Of a stretch of DNA of 10,083 nt, positions 1 to 6,647 are shown one piece after another. The DNA comes from an uncultured Opitutaceae bacterium (GTDB lineage: Bacteria > Verrucomicrobiota > Verrucomicrobiia > Opitutales > Opitutaceae). The position numbers were made by a program, and so were the translations under genes. The first letter of the stretch is position 1, and the number at the start of each line of letters is the position of its first letter. The notes beneath the pieces are model-generated. The model saw only the letters and a list, made by a program, of their open reading frames with translations, made no database searches and was not told where the DNA came from. The stretch lies in contig CAKZMS010000710.1 in the NCBI GenBank assembly GCA_937128785.1, forward strand, positions 1 to 10,083, given 5' to 3'.

Positions 1-644
1 GGGCCGGGGGGCGCGGTGGTCGGGATGTAGGCGAAGAACGGTCGGTCGCGGTTGGTCCGCATGAACTTCATCGCTTCATCGAACCAGATGTCCGTGCAGT
101 AACCCTCAAATTGTCGGGGCTCGTTGTTCACGAAATAGACGTCATCGAAGTAGTTGTTGCCCCAGTAGTCGGAAAGCTCCCCCACGCCGCCGGACATGTG
201 TTGGACCGACAGGCCAAAGCCGCTGTCGGTGGCGCGCACGGGGTAGGCGTCGCCCAGGTGCCATTTGCCAAACAGGCCGGTCTGGTAGCCGTTCGCCTGG
301 AAGATGTCTGCCAGGGTGGTGTTGTCAGGCGAGAGCGCGTCGCGACCTTTGTAGGTGGCCCACGCGCCGTTGTTGATGGGATAGCGGCCAGTCATGAGCG
401 CACCGCGGGTGGGCGTGCAGACCGGGCTGACATGATAGTCGGTGAAGCGGACGGAATCGGCGTGAAACTGATCCAGGTGCGGCGTCTTGAGCCAGGGATT
501 TCCATGGGCACCGATGTCGCCGGGACCTTGGTCATCCGTGAGGATGAAAATGACATTGGGCGGAGGCTTGGCGTCAGCGAAAGCCCCAAGGGGCAGGACG
601 ACCCAGAGCAGCAAACCCAGGAGGGTGGGGCGGGATTTAGGCAT
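1..644 (-). CDS. Secreted S1-family (arylsulfatase-type) sulfatase, N-terminal part, cut by window edge
   Basis: Hydrolyses sulfate esters, here probably on an algal polysaccharide. 214 complete codons are visible and the C-terminal part lies beyond position 1. Residues 1-23 form a signal peptide (hydrophobic core LLGLLLWVVLPLG, likely cleavage AFA|DA). The S1 hallmarks follow in order: metal-binding TDDQG (D37, D38), the formylglycine signature CTPTRG with C76 as the residue to be oxidised and R80, ALMTGRYP, and KWHLG with K127 and H129. C76 would need a formylglycine-generating enzyme or anSME, neither of which is in this window. Where family members usually read NAPHGP this protein reads TAPPGP (residues 210-215), so the usual sulfate-binding His is Pro. 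The ATG is preceded by CCCC with no Shine-Dalgarno. It lies 38 nt downstream of the GH117 gene on the same strand, so the two are probably cotranscribed. The substrate position cannot be assigned. Confidence 0.95.
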   Translation of the reverse strand, partial: MPKSRPTLLGLLLWVVLPLGAFADAKPPPNVIFILTDDQGPGDIGAHGNPWLKTPHLDQFHADSVRFTDYHVSPVCTPTRGALMTGRYPINNGAWATYKGRDALSPDNTTLADIFQANGYQTGLFGKWHLGDAYPVRATDSGFGLSVQHMSGGVGELSDYWGNNYFDDVYFVNNEPRQFEGYCTDIWFDEAMKFMRTNRDRPFFAYIPTTAPPG

Positions 645-682: not shown

Positions 683-1954
683 CTAGCGCGACAACTCTTG
701 ATCATTCTGCGTCGCGATGAGGGCACGTTGGGAGGCGGAAAGACCTTGGTTGAAATAAACTTCGGGCGGCAGGCCCACGCGGCTGTTCTTCAGGGACGGA
801 TCCTGACCATCCACGGTGAGGTCGCAGTCAAACCGGGCCATGATGGAGTAGCGTTTACCGGGTTCGCCCACACCGACGAAGTGGCTGAGGCCCCAGGAGA
901 TGCCGCGCCCGTCTTTCGTATCGGTGAAGGCATCAGGACTGTAGGGAGCGCCGGCGTTGGGGCCGAGGGAGATCACGGAGGCGATCTCGAAGTTTACGCC
1001 GTCGGCGGCATACTGCACGGTGCTGCGCTCGTTGCCGTCCTTGAGCAGGATGGTCGCGATCCCTTCCTTGAAGGGGAAGTAGATCGTTTCGTGTCCGGAA
1101 TTCACGACCGGATTGAGGGGGTGTTTGGCGAACGGGCCAAACGGGTGGTCGGCGATGCCCAGACCATTGCCCACCGCATACTGATCGCGAATGTCGGGCC
1201 ATTTGTTGTAGGCGGCCTTGTAGTAGAGATGGATTTTGCCGTCACGGACGAGTGGTTGCGGGTCATGCTGAGCGTCCTGATCCCATTCCCCCTTTTGGCC
1301 GAACTCCATCACCTGTTTGCCGATAGGCGTCCAAGGACCTGTCGGCGAATCAGCCCACGAGACCGTGACGGGGCACCAGTCGCCCTTGGTGCCACTCGGT
1401 TCGTTAAATGCCTGATAGTAGAGGTAGTATTTACCCTGCCAAACGAGGACGTCAGGCGTGGAGACGGATCGCCAACCCAACTCCGGTTGGGGCGGGCGCG
1501 GCACGGCGACACCTTGTTCTTTCCAAGTGAATCCGTCGGTGCTGGTGGCATACCAGATCTCACACAGGTCCCAGTCCGTAGAGGGGATTTCATCAGTCGC
1601 CTCCGCGGCGCGATGTGAACCGATGGGCGGCACGATGGTATCGCGCTTCGTGTAGTAAATGTAGTAGGAGCCATCGACCAGGATGGGACGGGAAGGATCA
1701 CGACGGGAGACCGTGCCGTCGCCGTTCGCGTAGTCGAACCCCTGTAAACGAGTATACTTGAATTGGGAGAAGAGCGGATTGTCCTGCGCGCGGGGAGCCA
1801 GGTAATCGAACATCCGATCGGCCGCCGAGCTGAGAGGGATGTCCGGCCTCCCGGTTGGCATTTTGTGAGGGAAGACAGATGCGTCGGCGGAACAGGGCAC
1901 GGCGAAGAAAAGGACCAACAGGAAGGCCGGGAGCAGGGGCAATGGGGATTTCAT
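683..1954 (-). CDS. Secreted GH117 family glycoside hydrolase (alpha-1,3-L-neoagarooligosaccharide hydrolase-like)
   Basis: 423 residues from the ATG at 1954. GH117 enzymes are five-bladed beta-propellers that release 3,6-anhydro-L-galactose from the non-reducing end of neoagaro-oligosaccharides. Residues 1-23 are a signal peptide (MKSPLPLLPAFLLVLFF, cleavage CSA|DA). Residues about 43-75 match the N-terminal helical segment used for domain-swapped dimers, ending in QFKYTRLQGFDY. Propeller motifs are SRRDPSRP (D86), STDWDLCEIWYATS, GWRSVSTPDVLVW, HDPQPLV (D231), NSGHET (H288, E289) and SWGLSHF (H358). D86, D231, H288 and E289 correspond to the catalytic and active-site residues described for the family. 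A longer reading from a TTG at 2014 is possible, but the ATG at 1954 gives a clean signal peptide. It is divergent from the GH9-like gene and probably in an operon with the sulfatase. Some GH117 clades are inactive on agar sugars, so the exact substrate is open. Confidence 0.93.
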   Translation of the reverse strand: MKSPLPLLPAFLLVLFFAVPCSADASVFPHKMPTGRPDIPLSSAADRMFDYLAPRAQDNPLFSQFKYTRLQGFDYANGDGTVSRRDPSRPILVDGSYYIYYTKRDTIVPPIGSHRAAEATDEIPSTDWDLCEIWYATSTDGFTWKEQGVAVPRPPQPELGWRSVSTPDVLVWQGKYYLYYQAFNEPSGTKGDWCPVTVSWADSPTGPWTPIGKQVMEFGQKGEWDQDAQHDPQPLVRDGKIHLYYKAAYNKWPDIRDQYAVGNGLGIADHPFGPFAKHPLNPVVNSGHETIYFPFKEGIATILLKDGNERSTVQYAADGVNFEIASVISLGPNAGAPYSPDAFTDTKDGRGISWGLSHFVGVGEPGKRYSIMARFDCDLTVDGQDPSLKNSRVGLPPEVYFNQGLSASQRALIATQNDQELSR

Positions 1955-2078
1955 GGGATCTGAAATCACAGCCAATAAGATTGCACACAAAATACCAAGC
2001 AGGGATCGATTCAACCGTTTACCTACTTACGGCTTTCGTCCGTCCGCCGTCGGGGGCCATGCTCTGTTCCCATACCCC
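1955..2078. promoter_or_regulatory. Divergent intergenic region driving both arms of the polysaccharide cluster
   Basis: These 124 bp separate the GH117 start (leftward) from the GH9-like start (rightward), so promoters for both arms should lie here. The GH117-proximal half (about 1958-2030) is clearly more AT-rich than the flanking genes, as expected for a promoter. I find no convincing sigma-70 -35/-10 pair at good spacing on either strand and no strong palindromic operator. Neither downstream ATG has a Shine-Dalgarno sequence; both are preceded by a C run. The regulatory role is inferred from gene orientation only. Confidence 0.4.
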
Positions 2079-4370
2079 ATGAATATAATTCGCTCCCTTC
2101 TTTTTTCGGTTGGATTGCTGGCAACGGTCTCGATGGCGGTTGCTCGCAACAACCTCGCGACGACCGGAACTGCCACCTCCAACGGCACCGGTGACTCCTC
2201 GCCCCAGCTGGTGCTTGATGGCCAGGCCGACACCGCGTGGATCGGCACTGCTGGAGAGGACCGGTCGGTTTGGTTGAAAATCGAACTACCGGGGCACACC
2301 GAGGTGAAGGAGGTCTCGTTTACTTTGGATTTGGAAGCGGGCGACGCTCCGGAGTCCTATGCGTTTCAGAAGTGGATGAACGGAATATGGTGGAAGATCG
2401 CCGAGGGAGATTTCACGGGAGAAGCCGAGATCACGGCCGAGATAAAGAAGGATGCCTTGGTTGATCAGGTGCGGCTCGAGCTCTTTGGGGTCGAGCGAGT
2501 TGCGGTCACGGAGGTGGGCATATTCGGAGAGGAGTATGAGGCAGACCTGACTGAGCTGCGCGCGGTGATTCTTAACCAGAGTGGATTCAACCGGGGAGCA
2601 CCGAAACGGTTTACCGCACCCAATGTGGCCGATGGCACGCGGTTCGTAATCCGCAATGTGCGCACGGGAGCGGAAGAATTCGCCGGTCGGGTTGAAGGCG
2701 AGGTGGGGGACTTCAGCAGGTTTGATCCCGCGTCGGGTGATGAATTTGTCGCGGTTGTGGGCGGCCAGGAGTCGTTTCCGTTTCGCATCGGACCCTGGTG
2801 GATGGAACGGGTGAGTTACCGCAACTCCCTCGATTTCATGGCGGGGGCGCGGCACTACGTGGGCACGACCAAGAGCATCTGCACCTTCTCCTGGGAGTGG
2901 CGGGACGGAGATTTCTTCAACTGGGCCCTGCAGACGCTCATCGCCCAGTATCTCTCCAACCCGGCCGCCTATGAGCGCATGGAGCGGACCATCGAATACG
3001 TTCCGAACGGACAATACCCAAATGAATACGCGGGTTTGTGGGGCGCGCTGGAGCCTCCGGCGGAAGATGCGCCGGACATCGTCAAACTCATCCACTGGGA
3101 CGCGGACGTGAAACTCTCCCAACGGCTCGAACATGAGCACCAGAAAGCTGAGTTGGCGCATTTCCTATACGCTTATCCGGCGATGGCAAAGTGGCTTCCG
3201 CAGCAAAATTTCGACGCCGTCTACGCCTACACGAAAGCGGTATGGAACAAGCCGACTGTTCGGGAAGATTCCACCACCAAATATGATCTCAGCGAGGAGC
3301 ATAACCTACTCGCCTTAAAGACCCGTCTAGGCACCAACAAGGGAGAGCTCCCGCCCGGTGCTTCGGTCATGCCCAACCTGATGATGTATGAGGTGGCGAA
3401 GGCTCAGGGGGAATCGGATGCGGACAAGTATTTCGCGGCGGCCCACCGGCAAATGACCTGGATGATCGAGCATCTGGATTGGGAGGACCCGATGAGCACG
3501 AAGGGACAGCGCATGTCCGAGCATCTCACCATGCGCGCGTTCGCCTTCTTCTATCAGCAGTATCCCGACCGGCATCCGGCGGGCCTGCAGGAGAAGATCG
3601 AGGAATGGGCCCGCGTGGCGGTGCGTCGTTCGGATAATCTGTGGGACTTCCGGCGGTTTACCGATGATGCCGAATGGGCACCTTTGGGTTGGAACGAGAC
3701 GGGGAATATCCTCGGATTTCCAGCGGCGGCGTTGGCGGCGAAAAGTGCCGTTAAATCCGCCGACCTTCGGCAGCGATTGGACGAGATTGCATGGGCACAC
3801 TTCGACAACGGATTTGGCCGGAACCCGCTGGGACGTCATTCCTCCTTTGATGGTCCCCGCGAGATCGAGGGAGTGGACCTGGGCTGGTTCAACGCGCACA
3901 AGGGCGGAATCGGTTTGCTGGAGCCGGTGCCGTTCGTTTTCGACGGATCACCGAAGGCGGAACACTTCCCGAATCACCCGGAGCTCGGCAACTTCGGTTG
4001 GACCGAGGGATGGGTGCAATTCAACATCGCTTTCAACGCGGCCTTGGCTTTCGCCGCCCACGACGCCACCGATCTCACGATCGAGCGGATCGGGGAAAAC
4101 GAGGTCGAAATTCGGCTGCGTGCCCCGTTGAATTTTGATGAGCAGGTGACGGATACCGTGACGCTCACCTTGCGCAACTCGCAGGGTCAATCGATGCCCG
4201 TCGTATTGACGGAAGAGAGCCAGTATTCGCGCTATCTGTCTGCCCGCCTCAATGTCGCGGGGCGCGCCCTGACGGCCGGAAATGAAGGACTGGCGTGGAG
4301 GCTAGGGGATGTGATCTCGACCGAATACGGCCGGAGTTATTTGAAGAAAACAGCCTCCCTTCGCCGTTAA
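2079..4370 (+). CDS. Secreted discoidin-like/Ig-like protein with GH9-like (alpha/alpha) barrel; candidate novel CAZyme
   Basis: 763 residues; I do not recognise a named family for the whole protein. Residues 1-22 are a signal peptide (MNIIRSLLFSVGLLATVSMAVA). Residues about 24-152 look like an F5/8 type C (discoidin) beta-sandwich: NLATTGTATSN, LVLDGQADTAW, WLKIELPG, and ending VAVTEVGIFG. Residues about 160-240 resemble the Ig-like N-terminal domain of GH9 enzymes (AVILNQSGF, KRFTAPN, FRIGPWW). Residues about 245-660 are mainly helical and Trp-rich, consistent with an (alpha/alpha) barrel. They contain WRDGDFFNW (D276, D278), HEHQKAELAHF, GFGRNPLGRHSS (580-589) and WTEGW...FNAALAFAA with E643. 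The last two recall the GH9 GRNPLGRSY and NE...NAAL segments. Residues 663-763 form a beta-rich tail. The frame is open upstream to 1953, but the ATG at 2079 starts the signal peptide and avoids overlap with GH117. It lies 115 bp before the GH29 gene on the same strand. Catalysis and substrate are inferred, not shown. Confidence 0.85.
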   Translation: MNIIRSLLFSVGLLATVSMAVARNNLATTGTATSNGTGDSSPQLVLDGQADTAWIGTAGEDRSVWLKIELPGHTEVKEVSFTLDLEAGDAPESYAFQKWMNGIWWKIAEGDFTGEAEITAEIKKDALVDQVRLELFGVERVAVTEVGIFGEEYEADLTELRAVILNQSGFNRGAPKRFTAPNVADGTRFVIRNVRTGAEEFAGRVEGEVGDFSRFDPASGDEFVAVVGGQESFPFRIGPWWMERVSYRNSLDFMAGARHYVGTTKSICTFSWEWRDGDFFNWALQTLIAQYLSNPAAYERMERTIEYVPNGQYPNEYAGLWGALEPPAEDAPDIVKLIHWDADVKLSQRLEHEHQKAELAHFLYAYPAMAKWLPQQNFDAVYAYTKAVWNKPTVREDSTTKYDLSEEHNLLALKTRLGTNKGELPPGASVMPNLMMYEVAKAQGESDADKYFAAAHRQMTWMIEHLDWEDPMSTKGQRMSEHLTMRAFAFFYQQYPDRHPAGLQEKIEEWARVAVRRSDNLWDFRRFTDDAEWAPLGWNETGNILGFPAAALAAKSAVKSADLRQRLDEIAWAHFDNGFGRNPLGRHSSFDGPREIEGVDLGWFNAHKGGIGLLEPVPFVFDGSPKAEHFPNHPELGNFGWTEGWVQFNIAFNAALAFAAHDATDLTIERIGENEVEIRLRAPLNFDEQVTDTVTLTLRNSQGQSMPVVLTEESQYSRYLSARLNVAGRALTAGNEGLAWRLGDVISTEYGRSYLKKTASLRR

Positions 4371-4485: not shown

Positions 4486-5796
4486 ATGAATATCGCACGT
4501 ATCGTCGGTCGTTGTTTCGTTTTGGCGTTGGTAATGATGGGTCGCGCTGCCGCGGCCGATCCCGGTCACGTGGGTTATGTGCCTGCTCCGGAGAACTTGG
4601 AGGCGCGGGAGTGGTTTCGTGATGCCAAGTTTGGGCTCTTCATCCACTGGGGCATCTACAGTTTAAAAGAAAACGGCGAGTGGGTGATGCACCGCACCCA
4701 GATTCCCAAGGTCGAGTATCAGAAACTGGCCGGTGAGTTCTATCCCTACGCTTTTGACGCGGACGAGTGGTGTGAAATCGCCAAGGCGGCGGGAATGAAA
4801 TACATCACCATAACCAGTAAACACCACGACGGCTTCGCGATGTATGACAGTGCGGTGAGCGACTACGACATGATCGACGCCACGCCGTTCAAACGGGATA
4901 TCCTGAAGGAACTGGCGGAAGCCTGCGAACGGCACGACCTCAAGCTGTTCTTCTATTACTCCCAATTGGATTGGCAGCATGAGGATTACTTTCCCCGCGG
5001 TCGGACCGGTGGTTTTACGGCCCGCCCGGAGTCGGGCGACTGGGAGGCATATATCGACTACATGGATACGCAACTGACCGAACTGCTCACGGGCTACGGA
5101 CCGATCGGTGGCATCTGGTTTGACGGCATGTGGGATCGGCCGGACGCCAACTGGCGATTGGGCCGAACCTACAAGCTCATCCACGACCTGCAGCCCGCGA
5201 CTTTGATTGGCAGCAATCATCACGTGTCCCCGATTCCCGGCGAAGATTTTCAGATGTTCGAAAAAGGACTGCCGGGCGAAAGCCCGTTCGACAAGAAAGC
5301 CCGGATCAGTGACCTACCGCTCGAAACCTGTGACACCATCAACAACTCGTGGGGGTATAACCAGCACGACCATTGGCTCAAAAAGGACCGCGACCTGATT
5401 CACTATCTCGTGCGCGGGGCGGGGATGAATGCGAATCTTCTTCTCAACGTTGGCCCCAAGCCGAATGGCACCATCGCGGAAAACCAGGTGAAGAAACTAA
5501 AGATGATGGGCGCCTGGATGGAGAAGTGGGGACACACGATTTACGGCACGCGGATGGGGCCCTATCGTCCGTCGGGGTGGGGGGTATCGACGGAGAAGGA
5601 CGGCCAGGTGTATGTGCACGTGCTCACCATGGACCGTTCCATTGTCCTCCCGAAGATTGATCGATCGATTGCGGCGGCCCGCTTACTCGATGGCACGGCG
5701 GTCGAATTCGAAATCGCCGAGACCGGCACGATCTTGCACCTTCCGACGGAGCGACCGGATCCCTACGATACGATCATCGTGCTGGATTATGAGTAG
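4486..5796 (+). CDS. Secreted GH29 alpha-L-fucosidase (possibly alpha-L-galactosidase)
   Basis: 436 residues, a normal length for a single-domain GH29. GH29 enzymes are retaining exo-hydrolases that remove terminal alpha-L-fucose; some algal-galactan members remove alpha-L-galactose. Residues 1-24 are a signal peptide (core FVLALVMMG, cleavage near AAAA|DP), so the enzyme acts outside the cytoplasm. The family landmarks appear in order: WFRDAKFGLFIHWGIYS (H54, W55), ITSKHHDGFAMY (H113, H114, D115), FYYSQLDW, GPIGGIWFDGMWD with nucleophile D213, ETCDTINNSWGYN (E280 in the conserved segment), and NANLLLNVGPKPNGTI. A short beta-rich C-terminal domain follows (about 355-436). The ATG is preceded by CTCC with no Shine-Dalgarno. 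It lies downstream of the GH9-like gene on the same strand and is followed by a hairpin. With GH117 and a sulfatase nearby, L-galactose or L-fucose on a sulfated algal glycan is the likely target; sequence alone does not decide which. Confidence 0.96.
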   Translation: MNIARIVGRCFVLALVMMGRAAAADPGHVGYVPAPENLEAREWFRDAKFGLFIHWGIYSLKENGEWVMHRTQIPKVEYQKLAGEFYPYAFDADEWCEIAKAAGMKYITITSKHHDGFAMYDSAVSDYDMIDATPFKRDILKELAEACERHDLKLFFYYSQLDWQHEDYFPRGRTGGFTARPESGDWEAYIDYMDTQLTELLTGYGPIGGIWFDGMWDRPDANWRLGRTYKLIHDLQPATLIGSNHHVSPIPGEDFQMFEKGLPGESPFDKKARISDLPLETCDTINNSWGYNQHDHWLKKDRDLIHYLVRGAGMNANLLLNVGPKPNGTIAENQVKKLKMMGAWMEKWGHTIYGTRMGPYRPSGWGVSTEKDGQVYVHVLTMDRSIVLPKIDRSIAAARLLDGTAVEFEIAETGTILHLPTERPDPYDTIIVLDYE

Positions 5797-5915: not shown

Positions 5916-6647
5916 ATGAACCTGGAGCTGTGGCAATGGGGACTGGCGGTCTTTGCCGCGATGTTCATCGGCATCTCGAAGACGGCGGTCGGGGGCTTGG
6001 GGCTCGTAGCGGTGACGATTTTCGCGAACCTGCTGCCGGCAAGGGAAGCCAGCGGCTTTGTGCTGCCGATGCTGATTTGTGCGGATCTGGTGGCGGTGAA
6101 AAGCTACCGGCAACACACCCAATGGAAGCATCTGGCCAAGCTGTTTCCCTGGACGGCCGGCGGTGTGATCATCGGCTGGTTGGCGATGGGCCGGATCGAT
6201 GATCGGCAGGCCAGTCTGTTGATCGGTGTCATCGTGCTGGCCATGGTCGGTCTGCACGTGTGGCGGATGCGGAAGGGAGAGGCGCACCCACCGGGGAGCG
6301 TCGTCTTTGCCGCCTTCATCGGAATTTTGGCGGGATTCACGACTCTGGTGGCCAATGCGGCGGGGCCGTTGATGGCGCTGTATTTGTTGGCGATGCGGTT
6401 TCCCAAGATGGAATGGATGGGCACCGCGGCGGTCTTCTTTTTTCTCATCAATCTGTTCAAAGTGCCGTTCATGATGCAGCTGGGATTGATTGATGGATCG
6501 AGTATCACGGGTAACCTCGCGCTATTTCCTGCCGTGATCGTCGGGGCGATGATCGGTCGCTGGCTGTTACCCAAGATCAACCAAAAGCTCTTCGAAACCT
6601 TTGCGCTGTGGATGAGCCTCATTGCCGGCGTGAAGCTGATGTTTTGA
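5916..6647 (+). CDS. TSUP family (TauE/SafE, DUF81) membrane transporter
   Basis: 243 residues, nearly all hydrophobic, with about 8 membrane segments (for example near 5-20, 46-62, 78-92, 98-114, 128-148, 172-187, 197-215 and 226-243). TSUP proteins export or take up small sulfur or carbon anions such as sulfite, sulfoacetate or sulfonates. The two-repeat signature of the family is present: GISKTAVGGLG at 19-29 in the first half and GFTTLVANAAGP at 140-151 in the second, the latter followed by LMALYLLAM. The ATG at 5916 begins the first helix and has no Shine-Dalgarno. The gene lies behind a probable terminator after GH29, so it is likely its own transcription unit. Export of sulfur anions released by the nearby sulfatase is possible but rests only on proximity; TSUP substrates cannot be read from sequence. 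Confidence 0.93.
   Translation: MNLELWQWGLAVFAAMFIGISKTAVGGLGLVAVTIFANLLPAREASGFVLPMLICADLVAVKSYRQHTQWKHLAKLFPWTAGGVIIGWLAMGRIDDRQASLLIGVIVLAMVGLHVWRMRKGEAHPPGSVVFAAFIGILAGFTTLVANAAGPLMALYLLAMRFPKMEWMGTAAVFFFLINLFKVPFMMQLGLIDGSSITGNLALFPAVIVGAMIGRWLLPKINQKLFETFALWMSLIAGVKLMF

Follow-up and report, generated by a model that had tools for sequence, protein, structure and literature searches.

An Opitutaceae protein of the GH9 superfamily with a reduced putative base motif, and its relatives in Bacteroidota and phages

Introduction

The stretch of DNA analysed here, referred to as the window, comprises 10,083 nucleotides from an uncultured Opitutaceae bacterium (assembly GCA_937128785.1, contig CAKZMS010000710.1) and carries a gene for a protein of 763 residues. 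A library search alone shows nothing but a discoidin domain in this protein, whereas deeper comparison places it, with an altered base motif, in the GH9 superfamily. Its relation to GH9 is established at the level of sequence profiles and supported by the predicted fold. The observation is confirmed as real and not due to chance, with 31 homologues aligned and controls near zero. These relatives are found in gene clusters for sugar degradation and also, unexpectedly, in certain phages, among the genes for the particle.

From the observed homology, predicted fold, residue conservation and gene neighbours we infer secretion, catalysis, inversion and substrate: the protein is probably a secreted, inverting glycoside hydrolase of the GH9 superfamily, forming a sequence family of its own, with D276 as base and E643 as acid, and acting here on an algal-type glycan. 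The family is set apart from GH9 proper yet most likely works like GH9; it is not classed as a GH9 member because it matches neither the Pfam threshold nor the motif with two Asp residues. An earlier note on this DNA had proposed a candidate new family of carbohydrate-active enzymes with a GH9-like barrel, and this interpretation is supported, with corrections on D278 and on the spacing behind E643, by the profile comparison and its controls, by Foldseek, and by the CelD_N and sub-threshold GH9 matches of homologues in Pfam.

Relationship to GH9

Profiles were compared with hhalign, using 28 family members (3 of the 31 having been dropped in trimming) and 18 of 21 GH9 matches from the same class; the E-values are those of a single comparison and not of a database search. 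The Ig-like domain and barrel together matched the GH9 profile with 99.2% and an E-value of 3.6e-19 over 431 columns, at 13% identity, while the barrel alone gave 84% in local mode (115 columns) and 97.6% in global mode (361 columns). The null controls stayed low, at no more than 0.23% in ten column shuffles and 0.13% with a reversed profile. The GH9 profile itself scored 15.8% with GH88 and 7.0% with GH127, and therefore a slight signal across families exists on this barrel fold. Set against the same two families, each represented by 18 of 20 fetched loci, the new family scored 0.23% local and 0.04% global with GH88 (GH88/GH105, PF07470) and 0.12% and 0.03% with GH127 (PF07944). Profile-level homology was thus found with GH9, and with neither GH88/GH105 nor GH127.

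A first structure model, built from 4 sequences, was poor (predicted local distance difference test, pLDDT, 57.7). The AlphaFold model of residues 155-665 reached a pLDDT of 69.7 and a predicted template modelling score of 0.74, and it shows an Ig-like domain on an (alpha/alpha)6 barrel, as in the CelD_N-bearing subset of GH9. The Foldseek comparison that the earlier note had proposed returned the predicted barrel with GH9 chains as all of its top 14 matches, and the alignments extend over 380-399 residues for the two-domain GH9 entries as against 309 at most for entries lacking CelD_N. That the protein could be an unsaturated-uronyl hydrolase of the GH88/GH105 kind is highly improbable, since these structures align with the barrel alone, within the shorter range, and the comparison with the GH88 profile stays at the level quoted above. 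Among the BFVD viral structures, nothing matched at an E-value of 0.001 or below.

Family libraries name less. F5/8 type C is the sole Pfam match above cut-off in the window protein, in which CelD_N (PF02927) and Glyco_hydro_9 (PF00759) remain unmatched at E up to 1, and the barrel is named by no Pfam or NCBIfam model in the window protein or the members scanned. At the same limit, 23 members scanned with Pfam yielded F5/8 type C in 18, CelD_N in 17 (best E 8.4e-7) and Glyco_hydro_9 in 4 (best E 1.9e-4); NCBIfam contributed a discoidin-type model only, in 4 of the 23. CelD_N was matched in 8 of 10 trimmed rows, and it exceeds its cut-off in two of ten members listed, at loci L029 and L034, as well as in all six phage members. 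The earlier statement that the protein has no named catalytic family therefore holds for Pfam and NCBIfam, in whose scans no strong hit to an existing glycoside hydrolase or polysaccharide lyase family was found.

Searches against PDB were fainter. The profile of 23 sequences found its matches mainly through the discoidin domain, with GH9 entries at E 0.044-1.4, and the barrel profile reached 5dgq at E 0.17; NKG2-D matches from a single-sequence search (best E 0.0014) were judged to be chance. Descriptions of this GH9-like barrel family were not recognised in the literature searched, which does not show that it is absent from print; in the portion of PMC8857213 available, GH9 does not occur as a whole word.

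Conserved residues and putative active site

Conservation was counted in an alignment of 32 members, the window protein and its 31 homologues. The acidic residues D276, D576 and E643 are invariant; D576 precedes the NP of GRNP by seven residues. In hhalign, with the same two profiles under five of five settings, D276 aligns with the first Asp of DAGD and F279 with the second, GRNP with the GxNP of GH9, E643 with the Glu of NE(x5)N, without a gap, and N649 with its Asn. The site of the second Asp is acidic in 1 of 32 members at position 279 and in none at position 280, so that two Asp residues near the start of the barrel, whether as DAGD or with longer spacing, were not found. On this alignment, the family appears to keep counterparts of the GH9 base and acid while lacking the second Asp.

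The segments that had been singled out are GRNPLGR (580-586), TEGWVQFNIAFNAAL (642-656) and RDGD (275-278). As for RDGD replacing DAGD, D276 bears out the proposal, being aligned with the first Asp, while D278 does not: it is kept in 4 of 32 members, all of them the window and Bacteroidota proteins, and was ruled out by conservation as the GH9 base. E643 meets expectation as the aligned counterpart of the acid Glu. The four extra residues supposed to separate E643 from NAAL, however, disappear in the alignment, where N649 pairs with the GH9 Asn and the distance from Glu to Asn is the same as in GH9; N653 was ruled out on the same ground. The choice of N649 rests on the alignment because the two Asn residues are about equally conserved (26 of 32 for N649 and 24 of 32 for N653).

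The following mechanism is envisaged. The discoidin domain would bind glycan and the Ig-like domain would pack on the (alpha/alpha)6 barrel, where cleavage would proceed by single displacement, with inversion, E643 serving as acid and D276 as base in a reduced motif, WRD, that has no second Asp. D276 may act alone, or another invariant residue (R275, K421, K475, R478 or D576) may assist it. In the window genome, the enzyme and the products of the GH117, sulfatase and GH29 genes would most likely act jointly, on a sulfated oligo- or polysaccharide of algal type.

Two observations slightly lower the odds of this reading, and of a new family: D276, in a stretch with pLDDT below 50, and E643 both lie in low-confidence parts of the model, and four of the 18 GH9 proteins used (one reading DAAD) likewise lack the exact DAGD that the other 14 have. 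The latter also favours the view that the family is a true but highly diverged part of GH9, to be placed in CAZy as a subgroup and not as a new family. The two-domain order, the retained GxNP and acid motifs and the sub-threshold PF00759 matches in members speak for that view; the 13% identity and the missing second Asp speak against it, as does the sole member score printed for PF00759, 19.2 bits (E 8.2e-4) in L029 against a cut-off of 27.7. This view is regarded as possible, though on the doubtful side.

That almost every member lacks the second catalytic Asp might also point to a catalytically dead or purely binding protein on the GH9 fold. This is unlikely: D276 and E643 are invariant across three well-supported tree groups (16, 9 and 6 rows) and L029, and a working active site is therefore suggested. 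A polysaccharide lyase, or another non-hydrolytic enzyme on the same barrel, is less likely still. Lyase structures do occur among the Foldseek matches, as 5nok/5noa only, but the 14 better matches are all GH9 and the invariant E643 sits in an acid motif with GH9 spacing, so the lyase alternative of the earlier note gains little. The reading as an inverting hydrolase, with D276 and E643 at its centre, also names the two residues to mutate, and the family offers a test of whether GH9 chemistry needs the second Asp.

Homologues, tree and transfer between phyla

The homologues came from genome samples, one scan of genome contigs and scans of IMG/VR. The 387 genomes sampled from the window's phylum, which are part of it, gave 20 barrel-covering matches in 15 genomes, the window's own included, and 12 more that extend over the discoidin domain alone. 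The scan of genome contigs added three Bacteroidota loci at 50-56% identity, a scan of closer relatives three additional members, and profile scans of IMG/VR six contigs. IMG/VR gave no match to the window protein as single query, a profile being required, and the plasmid and named-phage collections gave none to the window protein or to a phage relative.

In an IQ-TREE tree of the 32 members, the window protein clusters with the three Bacteroidota proteins (support 100/100), apart from copies of its own genus (L066, L067) and family (L065, L015). The letters that follow WRD agree with the tree groups: GDFF in the window and the three Bacteroidota proteins, DHHF or close variants in the remainder of the 16-row group, G(T/S/V/N)YY or close variants in the 9-row group, and SHQF in the six phage rows and L029. 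SusD was found in none of 19 close relatives of the window genome (its own genome included), whereas a Bacteroides control was positive in the same search, so that the window's phylum is very likely other than Bacteroidota on this count too. Because the window gene groups with Bacteroidota and not with copies of its own genus, while its relatives lack SusD, a passage of the gene between Bacteroidota and the window's phylum is suggested. Within the TKGQRMSE signature, the two same-genus copies carry Ala in place of E481, the sole exceptions among the 32.

Phage copies

Some of the phage members lie among particle genes. The member of L036 stands between the genes for a minor head protein and the scaffold; the module also holds portal, SU10-type capsid and tail sheath genes, and the order of open frames in L037 and L038 is similar as judged by eye. 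That of L063 belongs to a tail module, along with genes of the minor-tail, tail-tip and endopeptidase-tail kinds. That of L064 follows a frame that weakly matches an endopeptidase tail (22.8 bits, cut-off 31.3). The capsid protein of L036 is 54.6% identical to a Sporosarcina phage counterpart; the best matches are Enterococcus and Bacillus phages for the tail protein of L063, and Lactococcus tape measures for the first frame of L064. Golvesin_C replaces the discoidin domain in five of the six members, L064 having a short N-terminal piece only. No PHROG match to the barrel was obtained in four phage members tested.

A virion-borne depolymerase is the natural guess. The phage copies may represent depolymerases with a GH9-like fold, a kind of which no example was recognised among the literature matches listed. 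A broader proposal is offered tentatively, somewhat short of an even chance: that these proteins constitute a new family of glycoside hydrolases, a sister of GH9, which works with one invariant Asp (in WRD) and the acid Glu, has split into three or more well-separated groups, has passed between Bacteroidota and the window's phylum, and has been recruited by phages as a virion-borne glycan depolymerase.

Gene layout and neighbourhood

The open reading frame list agrees with the boundaries and residue numbers given earlier for the 763-residue protein (Table 1); its longest alternative start, at 1953, would add 42 residues. The order of signal peptide, discoidin domain, Ig-like domain, helical barrel and beta tail, likewise proposed before, is upheld by Pfam, by the models and, for the N-terminus, by eye. 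As a separate observation, residues 24-110, in the discoidin part, match PHROG 10304, a family of virion structural proteins (E 3e-6).

Table 1. Positions of features in the window and, in the last row, of family members in IMG/VR contigs
Feature	Position	Strand	Basis
Sulfatase, cut by window edge	3..644	-	PF00884; best PDB matches are GalNAc-6 and kappa-carrageenan sulfatases
GH117-type enzyme (GH43 in Pfam)	683..2014	-	PF04616; best PDB matches 4u6b (675 bits) and 4u6d (507 bits)
GH9-superfamily protein gene	2079..4370	+	ATG at 2079, stop ends at 4370, 763 residues plus stop; open reading frame list; homologues span most of the length
Probable signal peptide, residues 1-23	2079..2147	+	Hydrophobic N-terminus, judged by eye from sequence
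F5/8 type C (discoidin) domain, residues 31-133	2169..2477	+	PF00754, 30.5 bits (cut-off 28.2)
Ig-like (CelD_N-type) domain, residues ~158-240	2550..2798	+	Strands in both predicted models; CelD_N (PF02927) matches in homologues
(alpha/alpha) barrel domain, residues ~242-664	2802..4070	+	AlphaFold model of residues 155-665; best Foldseek matches are GH9
WRD motif, residues 274-276	2898..2906	+	W274, R275 and D276 invariant (32/32); D276 putative base or water-binding Asp
TKGQRMSE family signature, residues 474-481	3498..3521	+	T474, K475, G476 and R478 invariant; E481 in 30/32
GRNP motif, residues 580-583	3816..3827	+	Invariant (32/32); aligned with GxNP of GH9
EGWVQFN, residues 643-649	4005..4025	+	E643 and W645 in 32/32, N649 in 26/32; E643 putative acid; N649 aligned with Asn of NE(x5)N
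C-terminal beta domain, residues 665-763	4071..4367	+	Strands in model, pLDDT mostly high
GH29 alpha-L-fucosidase family protein	4486..5796	+	PF01120, 331.8 bits; 470 bits to 9eu1
TauE/SafE sulfite-exporter type membrane protein	5916..6647	+	PF01925
Family members in IMG/VR contigs	L036 4677-6953; L037 4677-6953; L038 4413-7631; L039 4512-6788; L063 5863-8217; L064 5950-7605		

The location of the gene between GH117, sulfatase and GH29 genes, as first described, is upheld by PF00884, PF01120 and the PDB matches. The label GH117 is our assumption, 4u6b and the anhydro-galactosidase structures being taken to belong to that family. The specificity of the GH117-type protein may differ from that of the anhydro-galactosidases, since its score to 4u6b far exceeds the roughly 200 bits obtained with the 3,6-anhydro-galactosidases (anhydro-alpha-L-galactosidases) in PDB. 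Beyond the TauE-type gene follow RuvC, TatC, a regulator of the iron-dependent-repressor type and a glutamyl-tRNA reductase fragment; the sugar genes therefore adjoin housekeeping genes. The neighbours give a short list of candidate substrates and do not by themselves decide the substrate. Elsewhere in the window genome, two adjoining GH9 matches exceed the Pfam cut-off (L001 and L002, contig C501; E 3.9e-53 and 9.4e-10).

Flanks of 25 family loci were compared with 16 control stretches from the same genomes by single-query phmmer; the queries originate in the window and in L033-L035, which are therefore included in their own counts. An oxidoreductase of the PF12831 type, dependent on flavin adenine dinucleotide (FAD), occurs in 8 of 25 loci (L034, L035, L072, L073, L074, L082, L083, L087) and a sodium:solute symporter in 9 of 25 (L034, L035, L072, L073, L074, L077, L082, L088, L105), against none of the 16 controls in either case; without the self-counting L034, the figures become 7/24 and 8/24. 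Outside L034 and L035, Pfam confirmed three oxidoreductases and two symporters, and the 10 kb window contig has neither gene. GH29 was found in 6/25 flanks (1/16 controls), sulfatases in 8/25 (2/16), GH117-like proteins in 3/25 (weak, 27-33 bits; 0/16) and GDSL esterases in 3/25 (0/16). The enrichment of these genes near the family is suggestive only, because the loci are of unequal length and, in some cases, two of them come from one genome.

Comparison with known systems

Among solved structures, the GH88/GH105 unsaturated-uronyl hydrolases give a shorter alignment confined to the barrel and no profile similarity. The multi-modular xanthanase (6fhj/6fhn), which we take to be a GH9 enzyme, shares about 13-14% identity with the window protein and is a larger modular protein of 978-979 residues. 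The best Foldseek E-values (2e-8 to 1.3e-7) belong to the Ig-bearing GH9 endoglucanases CelD (1clc), AaCel9A (3rx5) and J30 (5u2o), at 12-14% identity. The GxNP and NE(x5)N motifs, as they appear in the local GH9 profile, are common to these and to the new family, while the window protein has WRDGD in place of DAGD; the three endoglucanases presumably carry the canonical DAGD and act on cellulose-type substrates.

At 11-12% identity stand the exo-glucosidases/glucosaminidases of GH9 from Vibrionaceae, namely VC0615 (6gdt), VP2484 (3h7l) and PBPRA0520 (5dgq). For VC0615, which is among the closest solved folds, the available part of the source postulates D140 as base, D144 as the residue that places the water and E546 as acid, with 8.4 Angstrom between base and acid (PMC6096475); its extra Asp, D144, is without a counterpart in the family of the 763-residue protein.
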